NCBI GenBank assembly: GCA_016926475.1
Contig: JAFGON010000083.1
Coordinates: 1-26,495 of the forward strand
Source of the DNA: a candidate division WOR-3 bacterium
Lineage (GTDB): Bacteria > SDB-A
Direction: 5' to 3'
DNA length: 26,495 nt
Part shown: positions 510 through 22,419 of the stretch, piece by piece
Numbering within the stretch: position 1 is the stretch's first letter
How the letters are laid out: each line of letters starts with the position of its first letter
Program-made: the position numbers and the translations under genes
The notes under the pieces: model-generated
The model's database searches: none
The model's input: the letters and a program-made list of their open reading frames with translations, nothing else
Told to the model about the DNA's origin: nothing

Positions 510-1343
510 ATGCACTACAGGGATTTTTACGGTCTTAAAGAAGATCCTTTCAACAACATTCCTGATCTTAGATTTTTTTACCCCGGGAATGAATACACCA
601 GAATTCATACTCGCCTTCTGAGAGTCGCGAAAGAGAAAAAAGGACTCGGAGTTCTCACAGGAAGTGTCGGTGCCGGCAAAACCACTATTGCAAGGCACCT
701 GCTTTACCTTCTTAGAAACGATAAAAGCATCCAATCAGGACTTCTTGTTTTGATGCACAGCGAGTTTGAACCTGGTTGGCTCGTCAAGAGAATAGCCGGT
801 CTTCTCGGCATAAGAGAGATTCCTGAAGACAAAACCGAGGCTTTGGCTATTGTGACGAAAAGGCTTCTTTTGTTCGATGGTGAGGGTAAGCATACAACAA
901 TTCTTATCGACGAAGCAAACAAGATGGTCAACCCTGATCAACTTGAAGAAATCAGAGGGTTTCTCAATCTTGAAAAGGGCAACAGCAGAATTATTACTTT
1001 TCTGCTTTTTGGTACTTCCGATTTTTTGAAACACTTGGAAAGAAACGAATCTCTCGCCCAGAGAACTGCCATGAGGTTAAAAATCAATCCAATGGATTTT
1101 CCCTCGACTGTAAAATATATACAACACAGGTTGAAAACAGCAGGGGGCGATCCCCAGATATTTACACAGAACGCATATTCGCTTATTTTCAAATATTCAA
1201 AGGGTAGTCCCAGAACCACAAATTCTCTTTGCGACAACCTGCTTTTTGAAGGAGCCCTGATAAATCAGAACCCCATAACTGAGAGTCTCGTCGCTGAAAT
1301 CTCCGAAATGTTGGGCTTTGACAAGGGGGGAGAATCCTTTTAA
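510..1343 (+). CDS. ExeA/GspA-like AAA ATPase
   Basis: A 277-residue P-loop ATPase of the ExeA/GspA type (AAA_22-like), a family found with type II secretion, pilus and exopolysaccharide systems. The N-terminus has the family's opening pattern, an FYGL-x-x-x-PF element followed by a PD-x-x-F-x-x-P element at residues 6-25. Walker A is GSVGAGKTT (51-59), Walker B is LIDEAN (132-137), and a QRTAMR stretch near 184-189 supplies a likely arginine finger. The start is placed at ATG 510 because AGGAG at 500-504 lies 5 bases upstream. An in-frame ATG at 495 overlaps the preceding stop, has no such site and would add 5 residues before the conserved N-terminus. No peptidoglycan-binding domain follows, unlike long ExeA proteins. 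It lies between two acidic or TPR proteins and overlaps the next gene by one base. The exact process it powers is not visible here. Confidence 0.9.
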   Translation: MHYRDFYGLKEDPFNNIPDLRFFYPGNEYTRIHTRLLRVAKEKKGLGVLTGSVGAGKTTIARHLLYLLRNDKSIQSGLLVLMHSEFEPGWLVKRIAGLLGIREIPEDKTEALAIVTKRLLLFDGEGKHTTILIDEANKMVNPDQLEEIRGFLNLEKGNSRIITFLLFGTSDFLKHLERNESLAQRTAMRLKINPMDFPSTVKYIQHRLKTAGGDPQIFTQNAYSLIFKYSKGSPRTTNSLCDNLLFEGALINQNPITESLVAEISEMLGFDKGGESF

Positions 1344-3658
1344 TGTCTTTGTCTCAAAGTGAAAAAAAGTTTTTAAAGCAAGTCTCGGATTACAAGCGTC
1401 AGAAGAGGTACGACGAAGCTATTGTAATATGCCGGAAATTGCTTGAGATGAACGAAGACCCTGAAATCCACCGGCAACTTGGCGATCTTTTGGAAAGGAT
1501 CAATAAAAATGATGATGCAAAAGAGCACTTTTTAAAGTCGGCGAAGCTCTACGAAGAAACAGAAATGCTCAGGGAAGCTCTCGGAATATACACAAGACTC
1601 TCAAGATTGATGAAGGGTAAAGAAGACGAACTTGGATGGGACAAAGCGCAACTCTACATTAAACAGAATATGATAGCCGAAGCGATCAAAGAACTGACTT
1701 CCTATGGATTTTTAAAATTTGAACAGAACGATATTCATGAAGCGTGTAAATCATTTGATAAAATAATTGAACTCGACCCTATGAACATGAAAATAAGGGC
1801 GAAATACTCCAATCTGCTTGAGCAGGAAAGCCAGTTTCAAAAAGCAATTGATAATTTTGAGTTCATGAAGACGTATTTTGAAAAAGAAAACGAAATCCAG
1901 ACCGCTAAAGATATAGAAAAAAAGATTGCATCGATAAAGTCAAAAATTAACACTGTCTTTTCAGGAAAACCAAAGGAAACAAAAGATGAATATGGAGAAC
2001 CTACGGGTGACTTCGGCTTCATGCTGGGAGAATTCATCACAGAAGAAAAAACGGAGAAGAAAGGAGCTGAAGAGACTGAGATCGCTTCAAACATAACTCA
2101 GAGTTATTACGAGGATTTTCCCGTCTCCGAGAAAGACAGAAAGCAATCCGAGAGTTCTTATGTTGAAATTAAACTTGAAGATTCTCAACTCGCGCCTTTA
2201 CCGAGTCTTTCAAAAATTGGCGAAGGCTCAGAAACTATAAGCTTGGGAGGACCTGAGCAACAACCGAAACCGGAAATTGAACTCGATATAAGCGACTTGA
2301 AAATCGACAGGGAATTGTCCGTTGAAGATATTTTCGAGACAAAAAAAACCGCTTCTCCTACTTCGCAGAAGACTTCAGGTGTTGGAAAAAAACTTTCAAA
2401 ACAGAAAGAAGTTTCGAAAACTCCGGACGAAGAACTGTTTGAATTTTTAGATGAAGAGAAACGCGAATATGCAGAAATTACTGAAAAGACCGAAGATTTG
2501 ATATCCGGTCTCGATTTGGACGAATTGATAAAAGAGATGAAGGAGGTAAAACCGGCAGATTCGGTTTTTGTTCAGAACGTTCAACAGAGGATTGAAGTTA
2601 ACGAAAAGGTGAAGAAAAGAGAAGACACAATAGAGATGTCTTCTCTTGATCAGTCGCTGTCAATTGATTCTCTCCTCGACGGGGGGGTGGATTCATGGAG
2701 TAACTTGGCTGCAGAACTTGCAAAAGAAATGCTCGACAACAAATCTGCGGGAGAAATCAAGGAAACTCAAAACAAGATGCTCACGTCAACCTGGGAAGAA
2801 TTTGAAGAACAGGCTGAATTGCTGCTGTCGGTGGGAGAAGTCGAAGAAGCAGTCGATTATCTTTACCAGGCGGCGGACGCATACTACGACGAAAACCAAT
2901 TCGACAAAGCTTGGGCGCTTTACGAAAAGATTGTGGACTTGAGACCGTTTGAATTGCGGCCAAGACAGAAAATGGTTCAAATAGCTTTGAAAAGCGAAAA
3001 TGCCGGCAAAGCACTACTGGCTTATATTTCTCTTTATGACTGTCAAAAGCTCAGAGGAGCTTTCATTGACGCGGAAGAGACTATGAAAAAATTGAGAAAA
3101 CTCGCTCCAGAGGATCCCGCTGTGATATCCAGAGACGTCATGAAACCTATAGGTCCCCAAACTCAAAATCAATCAATTGAATTAAGCGACTTGCTTGAAT
3201 ACGAGCATCATAAAAAAGTTCCGCAAAATGACAACGTAGGCACCCTCATAGACGAATTCAAGGAAGAGGTCTATCAGAGCATAAGCTCATCTGAGAGAGA
3301 AAATTTTGACGCTCACTACGACCTCGGAATTACTTTCAAGGAAATGGGTTTGATTGAAGAAGCAATGGAAGAATTCAACATTGCTATGAAATCAAAGAAA
3401 TCTTACGTTAAATCGGTTGAAATGATGGCGAATTGCCTTCTCGAACTCGAGAAAAAGTCTGTCGCGATCAAACAACTTGAAGAAGTAATTGCGAGAGACG
3501 AATTCAACGAAAACGAGCTTGTTGGGATAAGATACCTTCTGGGTAATCTCTATGAAGAAAGCGGAGAGGATGAAAAAGCAAAGCATCATTATTTTCAGGT
3601 GATGAAAGTTTATCCTGATTTTTCTGACATCAAAGACAGAATTAAAAAATACATGTGA
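1343..3658 (+). CDS. large TPR protein with acidic central linker
   Basis: A 771-residue protein with no signal peptide or membrane segment, so probably cytoplasmic. TPR-like helical repeats fill roughly residues 10-200, with A-x-x-x-F/Y-x-K-x-I/A patterns and a typical ELDP repeat end near 145. A charged Glu/Lys/Ser-rich linker covers about 200-470. A second TPR block follows at about 480-600, then a third at about 650-771. The role is likely a scaffold for protein complexes. It starts at ATG 1343, sharing one base with the stop of the ATPase gene; GGGGGAGA lies just upstream. With the ATPase it forms a module that recalls ATPase plus TPR-scaffold pairs of secretion or surface-motility systems, but no secretin, pilin or fimbrial gene is visible, so this is inference. 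The stop codon directly abuts the stop of rarA on the other strand. Confidence 0.88.
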   Translation: MSLSQSEKKFLKQVSDYKRQKRYDEAIVICRKLLEMNEDPEIHRQLGDLLERINKNDDAKEHFLKSAKLYEETEMLREALGIYTRLSRLMKGKEDELGWDKAQLYIKQNMIAEAIKELTSYGFLKFEQNDIHEACKSFDKIIELDPMNMKIRAKYSNLLEQESQFQKAIDNFEFMKTYFEKENEIQTAKDIEKKIASIKSKINTVFSGKPKETKDEYGEPTGDFGFMLGEFITEEKTEKKGAEETEIASNITQSYYEDFPVSEKDRKQSESSYVEIKLEDSQLAPLPSLSKIGEGSETISLGGPEQQPKPEIELDISDLKIDRELSVEDIFETKKTASPTSQKTSGVGKKLSKQKEVSKTPDEELFEFLDEEKREYAEITEKTEDLISGLDLDELIKEMKEVKPADSVFVQNVQQRIEVNEKVKKREDTIEMSSLDQSLSIDSLLDGGVDSWSNLAAELAKEMLDNKSAGEIKETQNKMLTSTWEEFEEQAELLLSVGEVEEAVDYLYQAADAYYDENQFDKAWALYEKIVDLRPFELRPRQKMVQIALKSENAGKALLAYISLYDCQKLRGAFIDAEETMKKLRKLAPEDPAVISRDVMKPIGPQTQNQSIELSDLLEYEHHKKVPQNDNVGTLIDEFKEEVYQSISSSERENFDAHYDLGITFKEMGLIEEAMEEFNIAMKSKKSYVKSVEMMANCLLELEKKSVAIKQLEEVIARDEFNENELVGIRYLLGNLYEESGEDEKAKHHYFQVMKVYPDFSDIKDRIKKYM

Positions 3659-3661
3659 TCA
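3656..3661. other. back-to-back stop codons forming a TGATCA palindrome
   Basis: The plus-strand TPR gene ends in TGA at 3656-3658 and minus-strand rarA ends in TGA at 3661-3659. Together they make the palindrome TGATCA with no base between them. There is no room for an intergenic terminator, so transcription from either side must end inside the opposing gene or run antisense. Confidence 0.95.
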
Positions 3662-4912
3662 CAGATTCTCGTTTATTCCGCCTCTTTTTTTTTGCCAGAA
3701 AGCGATTCTTTTTTTGATTTCTTTTTCGAATCCTCTTTCGGAAGGAGAGTAAAATACTTTACTTGACAGGGAAGGGGGAAGAGTTTCCTGCCCTGAAAAC
3801 GCATTTGGATAATCGTGGTCGTATTTGTATTCTTTCCCGTGTCCCATGCTTTTTGCCAGTTTTGTCGGGGCGTTCCTCAAATGAATCGGAACCGGGAGGT
3901 TTCCAGATTTTTTGACTGCAGAAATTACCTTTGCCCAAGCCGTGTAAACTGAGTTCGATTTTGGAGCTGTTGAAAGGTAAATAGCAGCTTCAACTATGGC
4001 AAGTTCCGCTTCAGGCATACCCACGTAGTCAAATGCCTGTCGGGCTTGAACCGCTACCACAAGGGCGTTTGGATCCGACATCCCGATATCTTCCGAGGCG
4101 ATTCTAATCATTCTTCTCAAAACATAAAGCGGATCTACTCCAGAGAGTATCATCCTTGCGAGATAATAAAGAGCCCCCTGGGGGTCGCTCGATCTGACGC
4201 TTTTATGAAAAGCGCTTATCGTGTCGTAGAAAAAATCTCCTCTCTTGTCGAACAAGAGGATTCTTTCGAGCTTTTTTTCAATTTCATCTTCTGTTGTATT
4301 GTCGTCCATCAAAGATTCGAAAATGTTGATGGCTATTCTGGCGTCTCCTTCGGAAAATTGAGATATCTGAAGCAGAACATTTTCTGATACTCCCTCTTGA
4401 CCAGAGATATGCCGAGCTCTTTTCAATATTTTCAAGATTTCTGATTCCGACAGAGGGTTGAAAATAAAAAGCCTTGTTCTTGACAGCAAGGGGGAGGTCA
4501 CGTAAAAAGACGGATTTTCGGTTGTGCATCCTATCAAGGTTATGACGCCGGATTCTGCGTAAGGAAGCAAAACATCTTGTTGTGACTTTGAAAATCTATG
4601 GATCTCGTCGAGAAAGAGGAAGACTTTGGGAAAAAGACCTTTTTTTCCGTATTCGCCAATTTCTCTTATCTTGTTAACGCCTACCAAAACTGCGCTTTCG
4701 GAGTAAAAAGGAATTTTCGGGTTATTTTTTTTGATTATTTTCGCGAGAGTTGTTTTCCCTGAACCAGGAGGACCCCAAAAAATCATCGACGGGAATTTGT
4801 TGTTTCTAAAATAGGACTTCAATTCACAATTTTCTGACAGCAAATGTGTTTGACCGACGAAGTCTTCTAATTTATCTGGTCTTATTCTATCAGCAAGAGG
4901 TGAGTTTTCCAT
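3659..4912 (-). CDS. rarA: replication-associated recombination protein A (RarA/MgsA family AAA ATPase)
   Basis: A 417-residue AAA+ ATPase of the RarA/MgsA/WRNIP1 family, related to clamp-loader subunits and acting at stalled replication forks. Family signatures are the N-terminal PLADRIRP element, Walker A GPPGSGKTT (47-55), Walker B with DEIH (102-105) followed by RFSKSQQD, sensor-1 region TTENPSF (about 130-136) and the arginine finger in LLSRTR (R145). The C-terminal half has the family's tetramerisation region, with recognisable SEDIGMSDP and ARQAFDYVGMPEAELA elements. Length is close to the usual 420-450. The start at 4912 follows a strong extended -10 promoter by only about 10 bases and no Shine-Dalgarno is visible, suggesting an almost leaderless message. 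It is transcribed divergently from mraZ and converges on the TPR gene with no gap. Confidence 0.97.
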   Translation of the reverse strand: MENSPLADRIRPDKLEDFVGQTHLLSENCELKSYFRNNKFPSMIFWGPPGSGKTTLAKIIKKNNPKIPFYSESAVLVGVNKIREIGEYGKKGLFPKVFLFLDEIHRFSKSQQDVLLPYAESGVITLIGCTTENPSFYVTSPLLSRTRLFIFNPLSESEILKILKRARHISGQEGVSENVLLQISQFSEGDARIAINIFESLMDDNTTEDEIEKKLERILLFDKRGDFFYDTISAFHKSVRSSDPQGALYYLARMILSGVDPLYVLRRMIRIASEDIGMSDPNALVVAVQARQAFDYVGMPEAELAIVEAAIYLSTAPKSNSVYTAWAKVISAVKKSGNLPVPIHLRNAPTKLAKSMGHGKEYKYDHDYPNAFSGQETLPPSLSSKVFYSPSERGFEKEIKKRIAFWQKKRGGINENL

Positions 4913-5063: not shown

Positions 5064-5098
5064 TGGGTTAAAATGGGTAAAAAGGGGTAATAATGGGT
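5064..5098 (+). promoter_or_regulatory. MraZ operator: four TGGGT-like repeats with 10-bp period
   Basis: TGGGT occurs at 5064-5068, 5074-5078 and 5094-5098, and a variant GGGGT at 5084-5088. The four units are separated by exactly 5 A/T bases each. E. coli MraZ is known to bind TGGGN direct repeats with 5-base spacers ahead of mraZ, so this array matches the expected operator. The first repeat sits at the predicted transcript start, the third supplies the G-rich ribosome binding site (GGGG at 5084-5087, 5 bases before the start), and the fourth includes the TG of the mraZ ATG. Confidence 0.85.
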
Positions 5099-5521
5099 TT
5101 TTATGGAACACACAGGTGCGCGATAGACGAAAAAGGCCGTTTTTTCCTTCCAGTTAAATACCGAAAAGATCTCAACGAAAACAGAATGTTCTTAACAAGG
5201 GGTTTCGACAGATGTCTAAATCTCTACACAGTCAGAGATTGGGATTCGTTTGAAAAAAAACTTCTTGAACTTCCAACGAGCAAAAAGGACGTAAGAAATG
5301 TATTGAGATATTTTATCGGATCAGGGGATTTTGTTGAAATTGACGGTAAAGGGAGAATGAAAATTCCGACGGAACTACTGTCTTTTGCTGAAATCAAGAA
5401 AGATTTGATGTCGGTAGGGAGAGGAAATTTAATCGAACTTTGGTCTTATGAAAATTTCAAACCAGTCATTGAAAGCATGGATGAAAAAATCACAGACCTT
5501 TTTGAGAATTTAGGAATTTGA
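5093..5521 (+). CDS. mraZ: transcriptional regulator MraZ
   Basis: A 142-residue protein with two tandem AbrB/SpoVT-like swapped-hairpin domains, each marked by a D-x-K-G-R-x-x-x-P core (D12 to P20, D84 to P92). Arginines in these cores contact DNA in the family. MraZ forms ring-shaped oligomers and regulates its own operon, the dcw cluster, by binding TGGGN repeats. The length matches the usual 140-150. The start at ATG 5093 is fixed by the N-terminus (GFYGTHRCAIDEKGR, typical of MraZ) and lies 5 bases after a GGGG site. It heads the operon, and the repeats that cover its promoter-proximal leader and start codon imply tight autoregulation. Confidence 0.97.
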   Translation: MGFYGTHRCAIDEKGRFFLPVKYRKDLNENRMFLTRGFDRCLNLYTVRDWDSFEKKLLELPTSKKDVRNVLRYFIGSGDFVEIDGKGRMKIPTELLSFAEIKKDLMSVGRGNLIELWSYENFKPVIESMDEKITDLFENLGI

Positions 5522-5522
5522 G

Positions 5523-5816
5523 ATGAGAAAAATGATCAGAAGAAAAGTTTTTTATATTTCGGGGGGATTTGACCCGTTCAACAAACCTTCCCAGATACGA
5601 AAATTAGAAAAATTGATACAAGAAGACGATAATGAAATTGTCATCGATTTGAAAAATCTTCATTATATGCATTTTGAAACCGGAAACCTTCTTGAGGAAC
5701 TTAAGGAAAAATTGAGGTCAAAAGGCAAAAAATTGAAATTAAAGAATGTAAACGATTATTTTCTAAAAGTTCTGAATTTATCGGGAAACAACTGGAATCT
5801 GGATTTGACAAAATGA
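5523..5816 (+). CDS. small STAS-like domain protein (anti-sigma factor antagonist-like)
   Basis: A 97-residue protein that by eye follows the STAS fold: a short strand, a helix, the IVIDLKNL strand (39-46), then a helix with LLEELKEKL, the strand KLKLKNV (70-76) and a final helix containing KVLNLSG. STAS proteins such as SpoIIAA bind anti-sigma kinases and are switched by Ser phosphorylation at a DSSG motif; here that position reads HFET (50-53), so the usual D and phosphorylatable Ser are gone and Glu lies near the phosphosite. It is thus more likely a protein-binding or permanently switched variant. AGGA at 5512-5515 supports ATG 5523, although ATG 5532 is possible. It starts one base after the mraZ stop and overlaps rsmH by ATGA. 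No STAS gene belongs to the standard cluster order. Confidence 0.75.
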   Translation: MRKMIRRKVFYISGGFDPFNKPSQIRKLEKLIQEDDNEIVIDLKNLHYMHFETGNLLEELKEKLRSKGKKLKLKNVNDYFLKVLNLSGNNWNLDLTK

Positions 5817-6703
5817 GCATTGTTGAGAAAAAAAAGGCAGAAATTCACGAACCTGTACTAGCTTCATTTGTTGTAGCTGTCTTTTCGGTGTTTTACGGAG
5901 GTAGTTTTCTCGACTTGACCGCTGGTCAAGGAGGGCACAGTCAATGGATATTGAGATCCCTTGATCCATCGCGTGTCGTCTGTGTGGACAGAGATAAAAA
6001 TGCGATAGATTTTACAAAAAACCGGCTTGTAAAATACTCTTCCATTTGCGAATTTCTCAACGTGAAATTTTCAAAAGCTGTTGACTATTTGATTGAGCGG
6101 GGTGACAAATTTGACGCTATATTAGCAGACCTTGGAATGTCAAGCATGCAGCTGAGCTCTGACAGAGGGTTCAGTTATAAAGGAGAACAGCCTCTGGACA
6201 TGAGGATGGACCAAAGCCAGACCTTGAACTTGCAAAATTTAATCAGTGATTCATCTTTGGATGACATAAAAAACATTCTTTCTGTCTCGGGTAAAAGAGA
6301 TGAAATAAACAATCTTGCGACGGCGATATTCAAAAACAAAAATTGTATCAAAACAACGAAAGATTTGGCGGACATAGTAAGGAAAAATGGTTCCAAGAAA
6401 GATGCCGCCAAAAGACTGTCACGGTCTTTTCAATCTTTCAGAATAGCTGTAAATCAAGAAATCGAAGAACTCGGTGGAACTCTCGCTAAAATTCCGACTC
6501 TTGTCAACCAGGGAGGCAGGATCGCGATAATTTCCTACCACTCGGTGGAAGATTCTCTTGTGAAAAGGTGCGTTTTGGATTGGGAAAACAACAACATGGC
6601 TAAAAGAGTTTTTAAACGCACAATCAAACCTTCAAGGGAAGAAAAATTAAAAAACAGTAAATCGCGCAGCGCTCTTCTGAGATGCGCGGAGTTCTGGCGA
6701 TGA
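5813..6703 (+). CDS. rsmH: 16S rRNA (cytosine1402-N4)-methyltransferase RsmH
   Basis: The enzyme (formerly MraW) uses S-adenosylmethionine to methylate N4 of C1402 in the 16S rRNA decoding centre. At 296 residues it is slightly shorter than the usual 300-315. Visible signatures are the N-terminal HEPVL (12-16), the SAM-binding LDLTAGQGGHS (33-43), the ADLGMSSMQL and RGFS elements with PLDMRMD, and the C-terminal AIISYHSVEDSLVK block. Family members normally read D-x-T-x-G-x-GGH at the SAM site, and this one fits. It starts within an ATGA overlap with the STAS-like gene and ends in an ATGA overlap with ftsL, so translation is probably coupled. Confidence 0.97.
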   Translation: MSIVEKKKAEIHEPVLASFVVAVFSVFYGGSFLDLTAGQGGHSQWILRSLDPSRVVCVDRDKNAIDFTKNRLVKYSSICEFLNVKFSKAVDYLIERGDKFDAILADLGMSSMQLSSDRGFSYKGEQPLDMRMDQSQTLNLQNLISDSSLDDIKNILSVSGKRDEINNLATAIFKNKNCIKTTKDLADIVRKNGSKKDAAKRLSRSFQSFRIAVNQEIEELGGTLAKIPTLVNQGGRIAIISYHSVEDSLVKRCVLDWENNNMAKRVFKRTIKPSREEKLKNSKSRSALLRCAEFWR

Positions 6704-6996
6704 GAAAAATCATCGTCATTTTTGTCATTGTTCTTTTTTTTATTTTTATAGAGTTCTTGCTGACTCTTAATCAGAGATCAGCAGGTATGTCTCTTGCCAA
6801 TAAAGCTTTCGCGATGGAAAGGGAGGTTGACAGAGAACATCAGAAAATATTAAAGATACAGACGGTCATCGATGATAGTTACTTTTCAACAGAATACGCC
6901 AAAAATCTTTCCAAGGGTCTTGATTTTTTTTTCTTGAAAGAACCTGAAAGCCTTTTTCTCGAAATTGAAAACCTCGAAGGCGCGAAAGATGATTAA
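6700..6996 (+). CDS. ftsL: FtsL-like bitopic division protein
   Basis: A 98-residue single-pass membrane protein: a very short N-terminus, a hydrophobic segment at residues 3-24, then an extracytoplasmic region with heptad-like spacing (about 30-65) suited to the FtsL/DivIC coiled coil. FtsL sequences diverge strongly, so the name rests on topology, size and position between rsmH and ftsI, where ftsL normally lies. It would pair with an FtsB/DivIC partner and FtsQ to control FtsW-FtsI. The start is placed at ATG 6700, within an ATGA overlap with the rsmH stop and 8 bases after GGAG 6688-6691. An in-frame ATG at 6682 lies deeper in rsmH and lacks a site. Confidence 0.85.
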   Translation: MRKIIVIFVIVLFFIFIEFLLTLNQRSAGMSLANKAFAMEREVDREHQKILKIQTVIDDSYFSTEYAKNLSKGLDFFFLKEPESLFLEIENLEGAKDD

Positions 6997-8641
6997 AAAG
7001 TGGAACAAGCATCCTAAAATACAACTGCTTACAATAATTGCTTTCGCTTCATTGTGTATATTTTTCTTTGAATCTGGCAAAATTGCAAGATCTGAAACAT
7101 TTAGAAATCAAGCGAGGCTTTTGACCGCGTACAGTTTCTCGCCAGAAATACTCAGAGGATCTTTGATTGACAGAAAAGGCAGATGCATAGCTTATTCACA
7201 CACATCTTTGTCTGTTTTCATGTACCCCGAAAGCGTTACCAATATCAATGATTGCGCTCAGAGGTTGGAGAGAATAGGAATTTCAAACTCCGAAGAAATT
7301 ATTCAAAACGTCGAAGGCAGAAAAGGTTTTACCTGGATCGAAAGAGACGTAAGCGGAGACGTCAGCCGAAGGGTGAGAGAAGAAAATATATCTGGAGTTG
7401 GTGTTTTCTACGATCAAATAAGGAGATACGCGAGAAGCGTTTCTTTTGGAAATCTAACCGGTTGCGTGGACCCCAGCAACAGAGGGCTATCAGGTCTTGA
7501 ATACACATTCGACAATTTTTTAAAGGGAGAAAATGACACCGCCATAATGTCTCTAACCCATAGAGGAAACCTTTATCTCGGGGAAGAACTAGACCAAAAC
7601 ACCAGATTCAGAGGAGACGATGTTTTCCTCTGCATAGATATGGATATACAAGACGCTGCTTACAATTCTCTGAAAAAGGCTGTTGAAACGTATTCGGCAA
7701 AATCAGGGACTGTCATTGTCTTGGATCCCAAAACCGGAGCCGTCAGAACCATGGTGACCGTGGGTGAGAATGATCTGAATATGACCGTGGACTGGCAATA
7801 TGAACCAGGTTCGACATTTAAGCTTATTACTGCAGCGGCGGCTCTTTCAGAGAATTCTGTCTCACTCGATGAAATTGTAGAATACGGAAAATGCGAGGTT
7901 CAAATAGGCGATTACTTGATAAAAGACGCTGAAATACACGACACGTTGAATTTTAGAGAAGCTTTTGTGCATTCTTCCAACGTGGGAATGGTAGATGTGG
8001 CTAGGAAAACTGGGACAATGACTTTTAACAAATATATTCTTCTTTTTGGTTTTGGCGAAAAAACCGAAATTGATCTTCCTCATGAAGCGAGAGGGTATGT
8101 TCCTAAACCTAATGAATGGATAGACGTAAAATTGGCAACAGTTTCTTTTGGGCAGGGATTGTCTGTGACGCCCCTGCAACTAACAGCAGCGTATGCGGCT
8201 GTAGCCAACGGCGGATTTCTTCTCAGGCCCAAAATAGTTGACAGTATAGTTTCGCCTTCAAGAGTGGTTTTGATAAAAAAAACCGATACTCTCAGGAGAG
8301 TACTGACAGTAGACGTATGCGATACATTGACAGCCCTTCTTGTGGATGCTGTGGAAAGGGGAACTGGAAAATACGCAAAAATTGAAGACGTCTCTATTGC
8401 CGGCAAAACCGGCACGGCACAGATAGCCTCCGAATCAGGAGGTTACCGTGAAGACGCCTATATATCTTCGTTTATAGGATACTTTCCTGCCGAAGATCCG
8501 CAGTATGTCATATGCGTGATAATTGAAGAACCCAGGGGCGCCTACTACGGCGGGTATGTCGCAGCTCCTGTATTCAGAGAAATTACAGAATATATTATTC
8601 GTACCATGAAACTGATAGAGACAGCGAGATCACAGATATGA
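6989..8641 (+). CDS. ftsI: septal peptidoglycan transpeptidase FtsI (class B PBP)
   Basis: A 550-residue penicillin-binding protein: short cytoplasmic N-terminus, membrane anchor at about 11-30, a PBP dimerisation domain (starting with ILRGSLIDRKG), then the transpeptidase domain. Active-site motifs are all present: S275-T-F-K278, S329-S-N331 and K473-T-G. No PASTA repeats follow, so it is the simple FtsI type. It cross-links septal wall with FtsW. The start is set at ATG 6989 because AAGG at 6977-6980 lies 8 bases upstream and the hydrophobic anchor follows; an upstream TTG at 6965 would add 8 residues without support. It overlaps ftsL by 8 bases and murE by ATGA. Confidence 0.97.
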   Translation: MIKKWNKHPKIQLLTIIAFASLCIFFFESGKIARSETFRNQARLLTAYSFSPEILRGSLIDRKGRCIAYSHTSLSVFMYPESVTNINDCAQRLERIGISNSEEIIQNVEGRKGFTWIERDVSGDVSRRVREENISGVGVFYDQIRRYARSVSFGNLTGCVDPSNRGLSGLEYTFDNFLKGENDTAIMSLTHRGNLYLGEELDQNTRFRGDDVFLCIDMDIQDAAYNSLKKAVETYSAKSGTVIVLDPKTGAVRTMVTVGENDLNMTVDWQYEPGSTFKLITAAAALSENSVSLDEIVEYGKCEVQIGDYLIKDAEIHDTLNFREAFVHSSNVGMVDVARKTGTMTFNKYILLFGFGEKTEIDLPHEARGYVPKPNEWIDVKLATVSFGQGLSVTPLQLTAAYAAVANGGFLLRPKIVDSIVSPSRVVLIKKTDTLRRVLTVDVCDTLTALLVDAVERGTGKYAKIEDVSIAGKTGTAQIASESGGYREDAYISSFIGYFPAEDPQYVICVIIEEPRGAYYGGYVAAPVFREITEYIIRTMKLIETARSQI

Positions 8642-10098
8642 CAAATATTGATGAAATAAAAGAAAATTTTCCAGAACTGAAAATTCACGGATACAGAAAT
8701 GAAAACCCCTGTATAACCGGAATAGGACCCGATTCGAGAACTTTGGAAAAAGGGGATATTTTCGTGGTCACGGATGAAACTTCTTTAAAGTGGATAAAAG
8801 ACGCAGTCGCCAAAGGAGCACCGGCTGTTTTGGCGCGAGAGAAAGTACAAGCAATGATAAAAGTCCCGGTAATTGAATGCAAAAATACAGAAAATGCCGC
8901 TCTGGATTTGGCTCAGTTTATATATAAAAATGAAATAAAAAATCTAAAAATCGTCGGAATAACAGGTACAAACGGCAAAACCACTACGGCTTTCATGCTA
9001 AAATCCATTTTCGAAAAAGCCGGACTGTCAACAGGCATGATTGGCACCACCGGACACTATTTTTCAAATGAAACGGAGAAAGCGTTCAACACAACACCAC
9101 CCGCTTTAGAAATTTATAGGCTTCTCGGAAAAATGACAAAGAAGAGAATATGTCATGTGGTAATGGAAGTTTCCTCACACGCTCTCGAATTGGGCAGGAT
9201 AAAAAACTTGTTGTTTGATTCTGTGCTGTTCACAAGTTTCGGGCAGGACCACCTCGATTTTCACGGAAGTTTGGAGAACTATTTCAAAGCAAAATTGAAA
9301 ATATTCACTCTTATGAAAGAAAACGCTTTCTCCTGCGTCAATGGAGAAATTGTTTTCAAAGACAGTATTTCGAAAGCCACAGACAAGAGCATTTATTTTT
9401 ATTCAGCGAAAGAAGAATCAGACTTCAGAATAATACCTGAAATTCAAAATCTAGACTCTTCTCGATTCCGTCTAGTCGGAAGGGACTGTGATTTTGAAAT
9501 TGAACTGCATATTCCAACTCGCGTAAACATGTTTAACGCCGCGGGAGCCGCCGTATGCGCATTGAAATTTGGGATCGATGAGGAGACGATAAGCAATGGG
9601 TTGAAAAGAATCCGAGAAATACCAGGGCGTTTACAGAAGGTGAAATCAGGCGCCCCGTTCAGCATATTCGTCGATTTTGCGCATACCCCAGACGCTCTCG
9701 AAAATCTGCTTTCTGACTTGAAAAATTTGGAACACAAGAAAATTATTTCTGTCTTTGGCTGCGGTGGAGACAGGGATAAGCTTAAAAGACCTGAAATGGG
9801 TAAAATCGCCGAGAAATATTCAGATGTCGTCATTCTCACCGACGACAACCCAAGGTCTGAGAATCCAGATTTGATTATAGGAGAAATCATGGCTGGAATG
9901 ACTGAGAAACCTCTTGTTTTTCGAGACAGAAAAGAGGCGATCAGAAAAGCGGTAGAAAAAGCCGGTGTAGGCGATATCGTTGTAATCTGCGGCAAAGGGC
10001 ATGAAACGTATCAAATAACTCAGAATAAAGTAAGTGAATTCAATGACAGAGAAGAAGTAAAAAAAACTCTGGCGGAGTATGGATGGATTATGAATTAG
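8638..10098 (+). CDS. murE: UDP-MurNAc-L-Ala-D-Glu:meso-diaminopimelate ligase MurE
   Basis: A 486-residue cytoplasmic ATP-dependent ligase that adds the third stem-peptide residue. The ATP loop is TGTNGKTT (109-116), and a FKAKLKIF segment carries the Lys that is carbamylated in the family. The substrate-specificity motif reads DNPR (403-406), the form associated with meso-diaminopimelate rather than L-lysine, so the wall is predicted to be the DAP type. The C-terminus has the conserved CGKGHE element. Length is standard. It starts in an ATGA overlap with ftsI and overlaps murF by 16 bases. Confidence 0.97.
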   Translation: MTNIDEIKENFPELKIHGYRNENPCITGIGPDSRTLEKGDIFVVTDETSLKWIKDAVAKGAPAVLAREKVQAMIKVPVIECKNTENAALDLAQFIYKNEIKNLKIVGITGTNGKTTTAFMLKSIFEKAGLSTGMIGTTGHYFSNETEKAFNTTPPALEIYRLLGKMTKKRICHVVMEVSSHALELGRIKNLLFDSVLFTSFGQDHLDFHGSLENYFKAKLKIFTLMKENAFSCVNGEIVFKDSISKATDKSIYFYSAKEESDFRIIPEIQNLDSSRFRLVGRDCDFEIELHIPTRVNMFNAAGAAVCALKFGIDEETISNGLKRIREIPGRLQKVKSGAPFSIFVDFAHTPDALENLLSDLKNLEHKKIISVFGCGGDRDKLKRPEMGKIAEKYSDVVILTDDNPRSENPDLIIGEIMAGMTEKPLVFRDRKEAIRKAVEKAGVGDIVVICGKGHETYQITQNKVSEFNDREEVKKTLAEYGWIMN

Positions 10099-21870: not shown

Positions 21871-22419
21871 ATGGGGATAACACCGCTCGAAATAAGGAAA
21901 ATGGAGTTTAAAAAATCTTTCAGAGGTTTTGACGTTCAGGAAGTTCAAAGTTTTCTTGAAATAGTCGCCGACCAGTTGGAAGGTCTAAACAGAGAAAACA
22001 TGTCAATAAAGGAACAACTCAGGAGCTTGGAACAAAGGCTGGATGATTATAAAAGCATGGAGTCCACTTTGCAGAGCACTCTTACATCGGCTCAGAAAAC
22101 ATCGGAGCAGATAAGGAAAAATGCCGAGCAGGAATCGGATCTCATAATTCAGAACGCCAAACTGCAGGCGGAAACAATAATGGAAAAAGCGAGATCGCAG
22201 GTCGTTGAAATAACCAGCGAGATATCCGCTTTGAACACCCATAAGGTGAGCATAAAAGCGCAGATCAAAGGATTCCTCGAAGCTCAGCTCAAAGCTATTG
22301 AGACAGGCGAAATAAAATACAAAAAAGTGGAAATTGACGATGCTTTTCCTCAAATAAAACGCAAAATAAAAACAAATGCACCGACGCTTGACAATCTCTT
22401 CGAACAAAAAAATATTTAG
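21871..22419 (+). CDS. divIVA: DivIVA-domain protein
   Basis: A 182-residue coiled-coil protein. The N-terminal DivIVA domain is clear: TPLEIRKMEFKKSFRGFD with F17-R18 in the exact place of the membrane-inserting pair of B. subtilis DivIVA, followed by EVQSFLEIV. Long heptad helices run from about residue 30 to 150. DivIVA proteins sense negative membrane curvature at septa and poles and recruit partners. AGAGG lies about 7 bases before ATG 21871. The gene starts a block of envelope genes and overlaps the next gene by 44 bases. Its presence close to ftsZ recalls the Firmicutes order, here in a genome with outer-membrane lipoproteins. Confidence 0.93.
   Translation: MGITPLEIRKMEFKKSFRGFDVQEVQSFLEIVADQLEGLNRENMSIKEQLRSLEQRLDDYKSMESTLQSTLTSAQKTSEQIRKNAEQESDLIIQNAKLQAETIMEKARSQVVEITSEISALNTHKVSIKAQIKGFLEAQLKAIETGEIKYKKVEIDDAFPQIKRKIKTNAPTLDNLFEQKNI

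Follow-up and report, generated by a model that had tools for sequence, protein, structure and literature searches.

A STAS gene in the division cluster

Why is a STAS protein encoded among the division genes of the dcw cluster, and does the phosphorylation switch of its better known counterparts survive there? The question is raised by a contig of a candidate division WOR-3 bacterium (JAFGON010000083.1), whose full 26,495 nucleotides we analyzed and refer to as the window. The gene, which we call dcw-STAS (5523..5816, + strand), encodes a 97-residue protein with a single STAS domain, as judged from its Pfam match, its structural model, and its conserved place. It is tightly packed between its neighbors: the ATG lies 1 nt past the stop of mraZ (5093..5521, +; over the NCBIfam TIGR00242 cut-off), and the stop codon overlaps the start, at 5813, of rsmH (mraW; 5813..6703, +; over the NCBIfam TIGR00006 cut-off) in the tetranucleotide ATGA. 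Co-transcription and translational coupling of dcw-STAS with mraZ and rsmH are probable. The next gene of the cluster (6682..6996, +) encodes a small membrane protein that has no match in Pfam and that we assign to the ftsL position from its place and its hydrophobic segment. The window otherwise follows the usual dcw order of mraZ, rsmH, the ftsL position, ftsI, the mur genes, ftsW, ftsQ, ftsA, and ftsZ. Soon after ftsZ, a DivIVA-family gene is present at 21871-22419 (PF05103, E 1e-36), in a genome that also has a Mla-type outer-membrane lipid transport locus.

Across the start of mraZ (5064..5097, +) a (T/G)GGG motif is repeated four times, once every 10 bp. Since this layout is that of the Burkholderia cenocepacia MraZ site, which consists of four 7-nt repeats separated by 3-nt spacers (PMC7761207), the element is a probable MraZ operator. 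The four-repeat pattern gives one exact match against 0.01 expected, and it is also found in two relatives of the window genome (G001 and G002).

We surveyed the mraZ-rsmH interval in the phylum using four genomes from two genera, the window's own genome (G000) included. The arrangement mraZ-STAS-rsmH is present in 4/4, with the other three STAS proteins 77, 64, and 53% identical to that of the window. Between G000 and G001 the STAS gene has a pN/pS of 0.17, close to the 0.21 of mraZ and indicative of purifying selection; this value, together with the same-place copies in the three other genomes, confirms that the window gene is real and not a chance open reading frame. No other STAS domain was found in any of the four genomes, a weak second match in G003 being an ABC ATPase. 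The phylum members include the deposited WOR-3 MAG Zod_Metabat.185 and a MAG deposited as 'Desulfuromonas sp. SDB' (G003, LKUE01000042.1). By their collection codes and by this locus the latter belongs to one family with the WOR-3 genome, and its placing by NCBI in the Thermodesulfobacteriota looks wrong.

Fold of the window protein

The initial annotation, made from the letters of the DNA, had described the product as a STAS domain of the SpoIIAA type, and the domain assignment is borne out by both sequence and structure prediction. The protein scores 34.7 bits against the Pfam STAS family PF01740, where the cut-off is 22.6 (E 1.6e-8), and each of the 16 members of the wider group also matches this family, with E values no higher than 0.01. 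An AlphaFold model built from four sequences adopts the STAS fold with a mean pLDDT of 90.3. The top Foldseek match to this model is RsbV (E 4e-5, probability 1.00), and VIA-align likewise ranks RsbV first with a Z score of 11.3 (rmsd 2.5 over 90 residues), followed by TM1442 at 11.0 and SpoIIAA at 10.7; chain K of the Pseudomonas aeruginosa MlaFEBD complex aligns with a Z of 9.5.

The phosphosite is occupied by an aromatic residue

STAS proteins bind their partners through a helix face, and the canonical ones are switched off by phosphorylation of a serine at the start of helix α2. This serine is residue 58 in Bacillus subtilis SpoIIAA, the first Ser of its DSSG motif, and residue 56 in RsbV, the Ser of DSTG. 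The initial annotation had aligned DSSG with HFET of the window protein and had called the phosphosite altered. Both statements prove correct: the alignment is gapless, and of the residues H50-F51-E52-T53 (codons at 5670..5681, +) it is Phe51 (5673-5675) that holds the place of the phosphoserine. In the model α2 spans residues 53-66 and α3 residues 78-85, so that F51 sits in the loop before α2. A second residue that marks the group, Y79 (codon 5757..5759, +), lies in the first turn of α3.

It had further been proposed that a glutamate stands at or beside the modified serine and keeps the protein in a constantly phosphorylated-like state. A glutamate is indeed found beside the site, as Glu52 one position on, but the site itself is Phe51. 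Nor is the glutamate kept: the residue after the phosphosite is E, Q, Q, and K in the four phylum members, and in the wider group M, R, and Q predominate. A glutamate that varies in this way is unlikely to serve as a fixed phosphomimic, and we rejected that role for position 52; what the group conserves is an aromatic side chain in place of the serine. Read at the level of sequence, the site shows loss of the phosphate acceptor, not mimicry of the phosphorylated form.

The aromatic character of the site extends well beyond the phylum. In a profile alignment to SpoIIAA the Tyr of the wider group falls on the phosphoserine, and among 68 distinct STAS proteins from mraZ-rsmH intervals the position is Tyr in 57, Phe in 5, and Leu, His, Ile, Val, Asn, or Gln in one each, so that Ser or Thr occurs in 0/68. 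The 61 STAS proteins from elsewhere, a non-random sample in that they were gathered in the same searches with the dcw group's own profiles, have Ser in 58 and Thr, Lys, or Val in one each (Ser or Thr in 59/61). An earlier count on 34 dcw and 59 other sequences gave the same picture. The next-best separator is the column of window Y79, which is Tyr in 54/68 dcw-STAS and mostly Lys, Arg, or His in the others, and positions 59-60 in α2 are frequently Glu-Arg in dcw-STAS. Sequences within a family are non-independent, and all of these residue counts are accordingly a description of the pattern and not a test statistic.

Occurrence across phyla

The place of the gene between mraZ and rsmH had been regarded as unusual. 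That place is confirmed, but it is not peculiar to this genome. We searched 386 diverse genomes with the STAS alignment of the phylum and followed up with improved profiles. The first match outside the phylum adjoined mraZ, and when read its locus proved to be mraZ-STAS-rsmH; a third case was then found. With the improved profiles the arrangement appears in 18/20 genomes of the second phylum and 3/3 of the third, in single members of families f2, f29, f64, f132, and f183, in two members of f130, and in three of f7. Nearly all of about 66 relatives of genome G279 (families f216, f140, and f260-f268) also gave a strong STAS match, and at about 35 of these loci that were read, the STAS gene lies between mraZ and rsmH in all but one, the exception being a contig that stops short of mraZ. 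Altogether the arrangement is present in at least 21 families and at least four phyla, the latter minimum resting on f1, f25, and f69, which phylum lists place in distinct phyla, and on other families that fall outside them.

Within a set chosen only by a strong MraZ score, a STAS match occurs in 4/59 intact mraZ-rsmH intervals, and dcw-STAS is thus a common but not a general component of the cluster. Six other intervals of 315-490 bp (L164, L166, L175, L185, L188, and L213) have no STAS match. One of them, L185, contains a MerR-like open reading frame, and genes of other kinds can evidently enter the interval as well.

This distribution bears on the simplest alternative, in which the gene is a passenger with no role in division that owes its retention solely to its place within an essential operon. 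The 4/59 count illustrates that many bacteria lack it. It is nonetheless retained in place in nearly all checked members of several phyla, is under purifying selection, and has a residue signature of its own, and with these properties we regard mere carriage as very improbable.

Inheritance and a possible link to MraZ

In a tree of 93 STAS domains, 29/34 dcw sequences form one clade (82/89), while the four from the window's phylum and one other sequence fall outside it without support. When the phosphosite columns are removed, a single clade for all dcw-STAS is not rejected (p-AU 0.176). STAS distances track those of RsmH (r = 0.82; partial r = 0.65 given MraZ), from which the gene has apparently been inherited vertically with the cluster.

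The same comparison speaks to the possibility that the protein is a cofactor or antagonist of MraZ, which would bind MraZ and modulate repression of the cluster much as SpoIIAA sequesters SpoIIAB. At all loci read, the gene follows mraZ, in most of them immediately, and a MraZ-type operator precedes the operon. However, the co-divergence of STAS with MraZ vanishes once RsmH, which carries the species signal, is removed (partial r = 0.006), leaving a special partnership with MraZ without support, and in many mraZ-bearing genomes the interval lacks a STAS gene. We consider direct action on MraZ unlikely, though it deserves more weight than carriage as a passenger.

Relation to anti-sigma switches

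The initial annotation suggested that the gene ties the division operon to a partner-switching (anti-sigma) pathway. In its strongest form this would make dcw-STAS an anti-anti-sigma factor locked in the phosphorylated-like state, and the nearest folds, RsbV, TM1442, and SpoIIAA, are what such a factor would be expected to resemble. Several observations stand against it. The phosphosite is Phe or Tyr rather than Glu or Asp, and the neighboring Glu varies. Against the NCBIfam anti-sigma antagonist model TIGR00377 the window protein scores 26.5 bits, far below the cut-off of 53.45. When the three genomes of the window's genus were searched for a cognate kinase with HATPase_c_2, the profile of RsbW and SpoIIAB, no protein passed the cut-off.

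Where a canonical switch does occur among carriers of dcw-STAS, it is encoded separately. In genomes of the second phylum the contig with the dcw cluster also encodes, 26-28 kb away, a Ser-type STAS (motif WINSTG), which is followed by a 165-residue HATPase_c_2 kinase (E 6e-21) and recG. Taken together, these results do not support the reading of the protein as a phosphorylated-like anti-sigma antagonist, which we judge to be highly improbable, nor do they support the proposed tie to partner switching.

Candidate partners in G000 were considered and set aside. The two weak HATPase_c_2 matches in this genome are sensor histidine kinases, one of TPR/PAS/HATPase_c and one of HisKA/HATPase_c architecture, and were rejected as RsbW-type partners; a candidate SpoIIE-type phosphatase fits the description of a PP2C phosphatase better, and its gene adjoins one for sigma-70. 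A PP2C-type phosphatase with a membrane segment directly follows a sigma-70 (RpoD-like) gene at 919-4561 of locus L068 (contig C57 of G000), and each of the four phylum genomes has one SpoIIE-profile match of the same size. The STAS-kinase-recG arrangement described above was read in genomes of family f69 (L119, L121, and L122); it is a canonical RsbV/RsbW-like partner-switching pair near the division cluster and is separate from dcw-STAS.

Relation to the Mla transporter

A link to membrane lipid sensing had also been raised, and it can be framed as a displaced MlaB: the only STAS protein of the genome would serve the MlaFED phospholipid transporter from a distance. The genomes of the phylum offer an opening for this, as each has a single mla locus, in the order dnaB-mlaE-mlaF-mlaD-radA, that contains neither mlaB nor any STAS gene, and dcw-STAS is the sole STAS in all four. 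In the window genome, mlaE-mlaF-mlaD are at 6241-8747 of locus L064 (contig C82 of G000); the locus is also seen in L067.

The known interface fits less well. In the Escherichia coli complex MlaB contacts MlaF entirely via α1-α3 and the C-terminal coil, and Thr52 lies close to the center. The C-terminal extension of MlaF (residues 247-269) docks at the MlaF-MlaB interface, although MlaB binding does not depend on it (PMC7367683). The MlaF proteins of G000 and G003 are 248 and 251 residues long, and those of G001 and G002 end alike, so that most of the extension is missing. In dcw-STAS the equivalent of Thr52 is replaced by Phe. In the third phylum, moreover, mlaE and mlaF are immediately preceded by the gene of a Ser-type STAS (motif YIDSSG), and the dcw Tyr-STAS is encoded in those genomes too; G027 and G174 have both a Ser-type STAS beside mlaE-mlaF and a dcw-STAS. 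The presence of both genes in the third phylum and the shortened MlaF of the window's phylum speak against the proposed lipid link, and we find a displaced MlaB improbable. In the second and third phyla the canonical Ser-type STAS proteins are separate genes, so that dcw-STAS is not the local anti-anti-sigma factor there, and it is not a displaced MlaB either.

Proposed role of dcw-STAS

The reading we prefer is that dcw-STAS is a phosphorylation-independent STAS adaptor of the division or cell-wall machinery, a function that we infer and hold with even confidence for and against. The serine at the start of α2 is replaced, nearly always by Tyr or Phe, and most members have a Tyr where α3 begins; with the acceptor gone, the switch is presumably gone as well. 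The two aromatics, which lie on the side contacted by partners in related STAS complexes, may instead be part of a constitutive binding surface. An adaptor of this kind would bind a cytoplasmic component of the division or wall-synthesis machinery, and its activity would be set by the amount of protein, under the control of MraZ.

More broadly, the dcw cluster of several phyla may have an additional, old component, in which the phospho-switch of a STAS protein has turned into a constitutive aromatic binding site that controls division or wall synthesis; we see this as about equally likely to be right or wrong. The place of a STAS-only protein in the division cluster and its lost switch are new, while STAS-only proteins as such are known. 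A review of the latter mentions neither division nor mraZ, and among the open-access papers searched we found none that connects STAS proteins to mraZ or to the dcw cluster, which is weak evidence of absence since most subscription papers lie outside that search.

Few gene clusters of bacteria are as stable as dcw, and a gene kept between mraZ and rsmH across so many families is either an exception to that stability or a component that has been overlooked. Nature also provides here a series of STAS proteins without a phosphosite, and some of the same genomes encode paralogues in which the site is retained, which makes the role of the switch testable. Finally, the roles of MraZ and RsmH in the control of division are poorly understood, and a protein encoded between them offers a handle on both.

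Comparison with known systems

The evolution of the dcw cluster has been surveyed in 903 genomes (PMC8871954). That survey describes a longest cluster of 17 genes, does not mention a STAS gene, and, looking back to before the last bacterial common ancestor, concludes that there was 'likely no gene gain'. The window shares the usual gene order of that cluster but holds a gene outside the 17 described, and dcw-STAS looks like a gene that the survey did not count. RsbV, SpoIIAA, and TM1442 are alike to dcw-STAS in fold and length and are its best structure matches, as well as the best PDB sequence matches for the wider group. Unlike them, dcw-STAS has Phe, in its relatives mostly Tyr, in place of the phosphoserine; it is encoded in the division cluster of a genus without a cognate kinase over cut-off, and it falls below the NCBIfam cut-off for anti-sigma antagonists. 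With MlaB it shares a minimal STAS domain (Z 9.5) and a genome that encodes MlaE, MlaF, and MlaD, whereas it differs in lying outside the mla locus, in having Phe at the equivalent of Thr52, and in the company of a MlaF that lacks the C-terminal extension.
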